This document shows, in pieces, positions 17,518-18,157 of a stretch of 19,021 nucleotides of DNA. The stretch lies in contig JAAVHU010000035.1 in assembly GCA_014799585.1 (NCBI GenBank), forward strand, positions 1 through 19,021. Direction: 5' to 3'. The notes under the pieces were generated by a model. The model was not told where the DNA came from and did no database searches. It was given only the letters and a program-made list of their open reading frames with translations. This stretch comes from Clostridiales bacterium (lineage in GTDB: Bacteria > Bacillota > Clostridia > Oscillospirales > Acutalibacteraceae). The position numbers and the translations under genes are program-made. The first letter of the stretch is position 1. Every line of letters starts with the position of its first letter.

Positions 17518-17871
17518 TTAAAAAATAATTAATTTTTCGCTATTGAAACATTTTCCTAATTTTTCTTGAAATCTATATAAGCCTATAAATTTGTAAAAAT
17601 GAAATTGATCATAATCAAGAGCAAAATCATAAAAATCATATGAATCATCAACGAATTTTTCCATAGGAATATCAAAAGCCTTTGAAAAACGAAATAAAAA
17701 TTGCAAAGACGGCTCTGTAATATCCTGCTCATATTCTTTCAATAGACTTGCTTCAATACCGAAATATTTGCTCATTTCTTCAAGTGAAAGATTAGAAAAT
17801 GTTCTGCAATAAGCCATTTTACCGCCTACTGATGTTTTTTCTTCACATTCCTCAATATCTTCAACAGCCAT
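17518..17871 (-). CDS. Small XRE-type helix-turn-helix regulator
   Basis: A 117-residue soluble protein. The segment SNLSLEEMSKYFGIEASLLKEYEQDITEPSLQFLFRFSKAFDIPMEKFV (about 26-74) has the pattern of an XRE/Cro-C1 HTH domain: the LSLEEMS helix, the YFGIEASLLKEYE recognition region, then the PSLQFLFRFSKAFDIP closing helices. The N-terminus is acidic. The C-terminal 40 residues are rich in Tyr, Phe and Asp (DFYDFALDYDQFHFYKF), without a known domain. ATG 17871 was chosen: AAGGAG lies seven bases upstream, while the frame extending to 17943 crosses a terminator hairpin. Its leader (17888-18047) is an unusual structured RNA. It could regulate the ATPase gene beside it or its own leader; no operator can be named. 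Confidence 0.8.
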   Translation of the reverse strand: MAVEDIEECEEKTSVGGKMAYCRTFSNLSLEEMSKYFGIEASLLKEYEQDITEPSLQFLFRFSKAFDIPMEKFVDDSYDFYDFALDYDQFHFYKFIGLYRFQEKLGKCFNSEKLIIF

Positions 17872-17887
17872 CATTCTTCTCCTTAAA

Positions 17888-17914
17888 TTAAAAAATGCGC
17901 AGCCGAAGCTACGC
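17888..17914 (-). terminator. UUCG-capped terminator just before the XRE start
   Basis: GCGTAGC and GCTGCGC make a 7-bp stem (one U-G pair) closed by a TTCG tetraloop, then ATTTTTTAA. The T-tract ends four bases before the AAGGAG of the XRE gene. It either ends a small RNA or works as an attenuator for the regulator. Confidence 0.88.
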
Positions 17915-18047
17915 AATAAAACGCTTGCTCCAACTGTCGCCAAACAATCTAAATATGGAAACCATATAACAAAATATTACAGAGCTAAGCGTTTTTAACA
18001 AAACGCTCTCTGTTATATAGTTTCTCTATTTAATTAGATTATTTGGC
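17888..18047 (-). ncRNA. Candidate structured RNA or leader, 5' end at the closing stem
   Basis: On the minus strand GCCAAAUAAUCUAA (18047-18034) pairs with UUAGAUUGUUUGGC (17952-17939) over 14 positions with one U-G. Inside, GAAACUAUAUAAC pairs with GUUAUAUGGUUUC (one U-G), then ACAGAG with CUCUGU, then AGCGUUUU with AAAACGCU around GUUA. All wobbles favour the minus-strand RNA. The promoter at 18054-18082 places +1 at G18047, the first base of the closing stem. A separate terminator hairpin ends it at about 17888. AGCGUUUU occurs again at 17925-17918 and could compete for AAAACGCU. I do not recognise a known class. Confidence 0.7.
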
Positions 18048-18053
18048 AAACCT

Positions 18054-18082
18054 ATAATAACATATCTAAAATTTTACGTCAA
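18054..18082 (-). promoter_or_regulatory. Sigma-A promoter of the structured RNA/XRE gene
   Basis: TTGACG (18077-18082) and TATTAT (18054-18059) are 17 bases apart on the minus strand, each one mismatch from consensus. With the usual seven-base step the start falls on G18047. Confidence 0.85.
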
Positions 18083-18092
18083 TAAAAACAAT

Positions 18093-18114
18093 GGCTCCCT
18101 CTGACGAGGGAGGC
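18093..18114. repeat. GC-rich palindrome, probable fragment of an interspersed repeat
   Basis: GGCTCCCTC and GAGGGAGGC flank TGAC (8 of 9 pairs). The GCTCCCTCTGACGAGGGAG motif resembles a repeat that I recall in many intergenic regions of gut Clostridia. Only this part is present, joined directly to the aldolase terminator. It has no T-tract of its own. Confidence 0.5.
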
Positions 18115-18115
18115 A

Positions 18116-18145
18116 AATAAAAAGCCTTTCCGTTGGAAAGGCTTT
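18116..18145 (-). terminator. Intrinsic terminator of the aldolase-like gene
   Basis: AAAGCCTTTCC and GGAAAGGCTTT form a perfect 11-bp stem with a three-base loop, followed on the minus strand by TTATTT. It lies 12 bases after the stop codon at 18158. Confidence 0.92.
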
Positions 18146-18157
18146 AATCATTCATAT

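Follow-up and report, generated by a model that had tools for sequence, protein, structure and literature searches.

A structured leader between a promoter and an XRE-type gene

The window, the whole stretch of 19,021 nucleotides analysed here, raises the question of what a long structured RNA does between a promoter and the gene of a small XRE-type regulator. The initial annotation described an unrecognised RNA, either a small RNA with its own terminator or a regulator-linked attenuator. Its layout holds on the minus strand in all coordinates: a near-consensus promoter with a 17-base spacer places the predicted +1 on G18047, the base that opens a 14-bp closing helix around nested helices and a GUUA loop (Table 1). 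The RNA runs along the minus strand from 18047 to 17891. After the closing stem P1 come GAC, strand T, the UUCG hairpin, U6, AAGGAG and the ATG of the XRE ORF, so that the terminator (hairpin plus U6 at 17915-17890) and the ribosome binding site (RBS) lie where they had been read.

Table 1. Features of the window locus and the basis on which each is assigned.
Feature	Position	Strand	Basis
-35 element TTGACG	18077-18082	-	read from sequence; spacing checked family-wide
-10 element TATTAT	18054-18059	-	17-nt spacer, 6 nt ahead of predicted +1
RNA body	17939-18047	-	folds; P1 compensatory changes
P1 closing stem, 14 bp	18047-18034/17952-17939	-	fold
P2 helix	18029-18027/17955-17953	-	fold
P3 helix	18024-18008/17974-17958	-	fold
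P4 helix, 8-bp hairpin	18007-18000/17995-17988	-	fold
GUUA loop of P4	17999-17996	-	fold
5' internal loop region	18027-18033	-	conserved AAUA motif at 18030-18027
Strand B AAAACGCUUAGCUC	17982-17995	-	P4 3' arm and 3' bulge; pseudoknot 5' strand
Strand T GGAGCAAGCGUUUU	17918-17931	-	pseudoknot 3' strand; overlaps antiterminator 5' arm
Antiterminator 5' arm CAGUUGGAGC	17927-17936	-	pairs with 17909-17900 (GCUUCGGCUG)
Intrinsic terminator hairpin UGCGUAGC-UUCG-GCUGCGCA	17896-17915	-	sequence and fold
Terminator U-tract (U6)	17890-17895	-	read from sequence
Shine-Dalgarno AAGGAG	17879-17884	-	read from sequence
Downstream gene, 118-aa XRE-type regulator	17518-17874	-	Pfam HTH_3, E 1.4e-6

The window RNA folds at -63.6 kcal/mol, compared with -32.3 kcal/mol (sd 3.9) for 200 dinucleotide shuffles, none of which is as good (z -8.0). 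The statement that all mismatches of the palindrome are U-G pairs stands for the helices, in which 4 of the 42 pairs are G-U and the remainder Watson-Crick; it does not cover the whole body, which also contains a small internal loop, a TTAA loop and a 13-nt 3' bulge between helices.

The RNA is unrecognised in that no Rfam 15 family reaches its gathering threshold for the unit in 61 sources (the window and three sets of 20 loci), where the scan returns only tRNAs and one Gut-1 RNA away from the unit. A permissive scan of 17880-18150 gives a best E of 0.076, at 19.2 bits against a cutoff of 80.4. The Gut-1 RNA (Rfam RF01706) lies near one unit, at L016:2511-2586. No description of the element was found in the covered portions of the main texts searched, including PMC8040213, PMC11109978 and PMC8632094.

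Distribution and copy number of the family

The RNA is a multi-copy family of gut Clostridia and not a lone small RNA. A covariance model built from 41 units, 40 of them from the genus, matches 65 of 80 genus genomes, and a second model built from 105 order and class rows likewise matches 65 of 80. By covariance model, the unit is present in 35 of 100 genomes at the family level, in 81 of 245 at the order level (20 labelled families) and in 74 of 291 at the class level, including 18 further labelled families. The window's own genome is the sole match in two phylum samples (1/249 and 1/398), which include some same-class genomes without a match. In these many-genome searches weak matches fall to strict filters, and E-values are only approximate. 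When 60 relatives were searched at the DNA level, 53 genomes gave matches at E<=1, a loose cutoff that takes in chance matches. The strong matches mostly cover the 3' 59 nt of the unit, with 15 matches in one genome, and the matched loci, when read, prove to be complete, each with a promoter, a stem and a tail, and in most cases an RBS.

Within the window's own genome (1.03 Mb, 67.6% complete) there are three strong copies, in the window and on contigs C7 and C3. The 34 named records with the exact tail pattern are titled Oscillospiraceae, Ruminococcaceae, Eubacterium or 'Clostridia', plus one Bacteroides, and 21 of the titles name a ruminant host. One unit lies in a record titled 'Bacteroides sp.' (L118, JAMPEQ010000004.1), a title that is probably wrong.

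The richest case examined in detail is the genome G096, with 34 model matches, of which 30 distinct non-overlapping units are confirmed in the 22 stretches examined. Such numbers per genome, the palindromic shape, the position of some copies at contig ends or near runs of N, as is often the case for repeats, and the occurrence of some G096 copies along with related downstream genes would fit a mobile, dispersed palindrome of the MITE or REP kind in which a promoter and a terminator happen to lie. The initial annotation had raised this reading, and the many loci it envisaged do exist; their character is nevertheless un-MITE-like. Among the 30 G096 units the similarity of the upstream flanks does not exceed that of shuffled sequence (median 0.53 vs 0.55, maximum 0.72), the first 45 nt of the units are 0.62 alike (shuffled 0.53) against 0.84 for the functional tail, and no sharp boundary of likeness appears. 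The stems diverge by compensation, the wobbles are strand-specific, and the unit occurs in 20 labelled families within the order. With unrelated flanks in G096, compensated stems and an RBS and ORF usually behind the unit, the dispersed MITE was rejected as highly improbable.

Two sets of units serve for the counts below. The first comprises 104 units: 71 from the window and the genus, one from another family of the order (L022) and 32 from named records. Its search pattern required P1 to end canonically and to have 8 or more pairs, and it captures just 11 of the 30 G096 units; the set is incomplete and leans to canonical P1. The second comprises 102 distinct order and class units, from 105 model matches with three duplicates, and its model contains P1 and the terminator. 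Because selection used P1, the P1 counts of both sets lean towards P1; the pseudoknot is a selection criterion in neither set and part of neither model. Two units are common to both. Some genomes contribute several units, which are then non-independent, and the permutation tests ignore relatedness. From the first set, 8 of 104 units without a parsed terminator were dropped to give 96, and 8 of these without a parsed loop to give 88; from the second, 2 of 102 with a short P1 were dropped, leaving 100 for the P1 and pseudoknot counts. A MAFFT alignment analysed with RNAalifold recovers P1 and part of the terminator only, the terminator being incomplete because MAFFT misaligns variable stems, and it was set aside for single-sequence folds and anchors.

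Promoter geometry, closing stem and conserved unpaired sequence

A promoter at a near-fixed distance belongs to the unit. The conserved spacing that had been proposed as support is found in both sets: a 17-nt spacer with a 6-nt gap between the -10 element and the first stem base occurs in 83 of 104 first-set units and in 83 of 102 order and class units, 13 more of the latter having a 7-nt gap. A promoter score of at least 9 is reached by 93% of first-set units, compared with 1.6% of random upstream places. The geometry is not invariant; in G096 the spacer is 18 nt in 16 of the 30 units and 17 nt in 10, both with the 6-nt gap.

Single-sequence folds of most units share a common plan, consisting of P1 (mostly 12-22 bp), an asymmetric 5' loop, variable P2 and P3 helices, a 3' bulge of ~10-18 nt and the P4 hairpin; a few units fold otherwise. 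The homologs carry the compensatory changes that the initial annotation had asked for. Among 100 order and class units, P1 pair 3 is CG in 51, GC in 35, AT in 9 and TA in 5, and pair 10 is AT in 55, TA in 24, CG in 11 and GC in 8, with 2 mismatches. Over P1 pairs 1-12 of 202 distinct units there are 105 G-U, 0 A-C and 15 other mismatches, in a count for which the stem finder let G-U through and not A-C. Less bias attaches to pairs 9-12, which in 104 units show 5 G-U, 0 A-C and 2 other mismatches. The wobbles are thus G-U and never A-C, which marks the minus-strand transcript, as had been argued from the window.

Two unpaired segments are conserved. AAUA occurs within the 5' loop region in 79% of the 96 first-set units and 71% of the 100 order and class units, whereas the mirrored opposite arm has it in 26% and 23%. 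A run that is mostly U-N-UUU comes after strand B, although the window's own bulge departs from this family consensus of a U-rich bulge. The AAUA loop and the U-rich bulge are likely candidate contact sites for a signal. Since the stem between them varies in length among units, a single rigid pocket formed by both is unlikely. A U-A-U triplex of the two U-runs with an A-run was also considered, and dropped by reasoning on strand polarity.

A covarying pseudoknot between strands B and T

The initial annotation had pointed out a second copy of AGCGUUUU at 17925-17918 that could displace an inner helix. The copy is real and is part of strand T of a conserved, covarying pseudoknot with strand B. 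In the order and class units, a B-T duplex of -12 kcal/mol or better forms in 99 of 100, compared with 30% when the inner region is shuffled, and cognate strands pair better than permuted ones (z -10.7, 0 of 5000 permutations as good). The 96 first-set units give the same picture (z -10.5, 0 of 5000). A looser test at the order level, with 52 rows reduced to 47 after 3 skipped rows and 2 duplicates, finds a duplex of -11.8 kcal/mol or better in 47 of 47 units, with a cognate-versus-permuted z of -8.0.

The covariation is confined to some of the pairs. With a pairing-blind anchor in the first set, one pseudoknot pair is GC in 61 units and AT in 29, and is paired in 93 of 96 where 73.9 are expected. 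Of the 8 positions counted, 1, 3 and 5 lie above every permutation, 0 and 2 are nearly always pairable with any partner, and 4, 6 and 7 do not outperform permuted pairs. The T base that follows GGAG meets its B partner as C-G in 24, U-A in 20 and U-G in 6 of the parsed class units, 30 of 96 first-set and 39 of 100 order and class units not being parsed in this test and in that of antiterminator covariation.

Predicted competition between antiterminator and terminator

In predicted folds, the fate of the terminator mostly follows the state of strand T. When T is free, an antiterminator is predicted and the terminator lost in 80 of the 88 parsed first-set units, the terminator being kept in 8; when T is blocked, the terminator folds in 84 of 88. 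Both outcomes are predicted in 76 of 88 units. The switching that the initial annotation considered possible through the second AGCGUUUU would take the form of exclusive pairings. For the window RNA, the prediction for the free 3' end is the antiterminator rather than the terminator, which corrects the first reading. The looser order-level test gives an antiterminator with loss of the terminator in 30 of 47 units when T is free, and a kept terminator in 17.

There is little independent covariation of the antiterminator in the first set, where the cognate energy is -10.3 kcal/mol against -10.0 for permuted strands and 2 of 2000 permutations are as good. Covariation in the class is modest: the antiterminator is pairable in 60 of 61 parsed units, with 39 of 100 not parsed (Fisher p 0.009). 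When the energies of the two states are compared, P4 plus antiterminator comes out ahead by 7.4 kcal/mol for the window unit and by a median of 5.4 kcal/mol across the first set, before any pseudoknot penalty. This balance is crude, since the duplex could reach into the terminator arm, and as modelled the computed energies do not decide the winning state.

The predicted start on the first paired base recalls another role. Pairing of the first base of an RNA generally protects 5' ends, and the unit could on that ground be a structured leader that does not switch and merely stabilises mRNA 5' ends. A conserved intrinsic terminator between the leader and the RBS, together with conservation of the mutually exclusive pairings, makes such a purely protective leader very hard to credit.

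With its family, strand, promoter geometry, covariation in P1 and in the pseudoknot, exclusive pairings and RBS/ORF adjacency all computed, the unit is probably a cis-acting transcription attenuator in a 5' leader, riboswitch-like in its predicted design. We infer real regulation of termination, its OFF/ON direction and a signal, in the following manner. RNA polymerase would start on the base that opens the closing stem. The body would then fold into P1, P2, P3 and P4, strand B being divided between P4 and the single-stranded 3' bulge. Because part of B lies in P4, this helix cannot coexist with the full pseudoknot. Once strand T emerges, two outcomes would compete. In the first, T pairs with B in a putative pseudoknot of ~12-14 bp, for which the bulge may act as a toehold and P4 would be invaded; T would then be unavailable, the UUCG terminator would form and the gene would be OFF. 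In the second, B would be held back and T would pair with the 5' arm and loop of the terminator as an antiterminator, allowing transcription to run on into the RBS and the gene (ON).

The signal would likely act at the conserved unpaired AAUA loop and U-rich bulge. A small molecule is a plausible candidate for it and a protein a possible one; co-transcriptional kinetics or temperature would be an unlikely trigger, and another RNA a more unlikely one still. Because promoter, switch and terminator make up one small cassette, the signal can be sought directly with reporters.

Genes behind the unit

In 64 of the 92 first-set units, the terminator is followed within 60 nt by a Shine-Dalgarno sequence and the start of an ORF of at least 40 aa. 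Of 177 other intrinsic terminators in this DNA, 13 show such adjacency, as do 7% of 3000 random positions. Within 70 nt, 63 of 102 order and class units have an RBS and ORF, a set with no control of its own.

These counts bear on the small-RNA half of the initial annotation. The units could be stand-alone small RNA genes, with a constitutive terminator, an RNA of ~160 nt acting in trans and neighbouring ORFs that are incidental. The units bring a promoter and a terminator with them, the predicted +1 falls on a closed stem, and 28 of 92 have no RBS and ORF within 60 nt. Tandem arrays of complete same-strand units are a further point in favour: four units in G008 (L028, C60), several pairs in G096, and three units each in G099 (L111, C2) and G679 (L260, C138), with an own promoter and terminator on every unit looked at and no ORF found between the units of the G008 array. 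These arrays are the main feature that an attenuator leaves unexplained, and they sustain the idea of small RNA genes. Incidental neighbours are difficult to reconcile with the adjacency of 64/92 against 13/177, which speaks against a placement independent of the genes behind, although 28 of the 92 units would still qualify. Strand T is, moreover, complementary both to B and to the terminator, whereas a constitutive terminator needs neither, and one XRE gene family keeps the unit at 8 of 10 loci. Free-standing small RNA genes are therefore unlikely.

The attenuator fits better, although its link to XRE regulators, as initially annotated, is not specific, and the unit precedes many unrelated genes. 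Matches to the XRE protein occur at 10 loci in 5 of 80 genus genomes, the window included; the unit lies upstream on the same strand at 8 of them, the window among the 8, with runs of N between unit and gene at one (G015). The genome of the window has one further XRE homolog (L270, G000:C23), with no detected unit ahead of the gene.

The downstream genes include BspA-type leucine-rich repeat (LRR) proteins, lipoproteins and small regulators. By an own heuristic, the N terminus is hydrophobic and signal-like in 34 of the 55 first-set proteins encoded downstream that reach 100 aa, compared with 108 of 362 background ORFs. In a Pfam search restricted to units with an adjacent ORF and to proteins cut at 300 aa, LRR_5 (BspA) is matched by 11 of 63 first-set and 9 of 63 order and class proteins, PIN7 by 5 of 63 first-set proteins and a MazE/AbrB-like domain by 5 of 63 order and class proteins; LytTR, M23, CHAP and others are matched singly. 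These genes suggest control of bacterial surface display. A PADLOC search of first-set proteins for an association with defence returns only weak matches (KwaA in 5 of 63, best 1.5e-5, and HTH-type matches). Among viral contigs, a scan found three stretches, in which the model detected no unit.

Two small protein families recur beside the unit. The PIN7 family lies repeatedly directly behind it (L002, L020, L040, L046 and L148, and also C7 of the window's own genome), and a family of 91-95 aa accompanies it in G096 (L078, L079, L085, L086 and L089).

Comparison with known systems

Riboswitches such as preQ1, SAM-II, fluoride and c-di-GMP-II combine pseudoknot aptamers with intrinsic terminators. 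The unit resembles them in its 5' leader position, the predicted choice between a pseudoknot and an antiterminator/terminator pair, the U-tract and the gene directly behind, and it resembles second-messenger riboswitches in its many copies with surface genes. Unlike the pseudoknot riboswitches, it has no Rfam match and holds its promoter inside the conserved unit, with the predicted +1 on the closing stem; its pseudoknot is made through the bulge strand of a long, sequence-variable hairpin.

Plasmid attenuators of the pT181/pIP501 type are controlled by antisense RNA. They too let competing long helices decide termination, but in the unit the two competing strands are both in cis and covary. 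6S RNA is a long hairpin with an internal bulge and closed ends, ~160-200 nt in length, features and size that the unit shares; the unit differs in being multi-copy, in its leader position and in its pseudoknot and probable attenuator, and the sources scanned give no 6S or other Rfam match to the unit. MITE and REP palindromes are likewise dispersed and multi-copy, but do not share the unit's compensatory divergence, promoter, RBS/ORF context and, in one genome, unrelated upstream flanks.

We tentatively suggest that the unit could be a new class of signal-sensing leader RNA, perhaps best described as a probable signalling-molecule riboswitch with its own promoter. It would coordinate surface-protein, lipoprotein and small regulatory genes as one regulon in many clostridial families, reaching 30 or more copies in a single genome and forming tandem arrays. 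A gut RNA of many copies without an Rfam match would open a whole regulon to study.

A longer variant of ~190-235 nt (L180-L191) keeps P1, strand T, the terminator and the pseudoknot and adds an extra hairpin. Its pseudoknot strand apparently lies in the P4 loop and 3' arm, and the invading strand would, it appears, enter from the opposite side.
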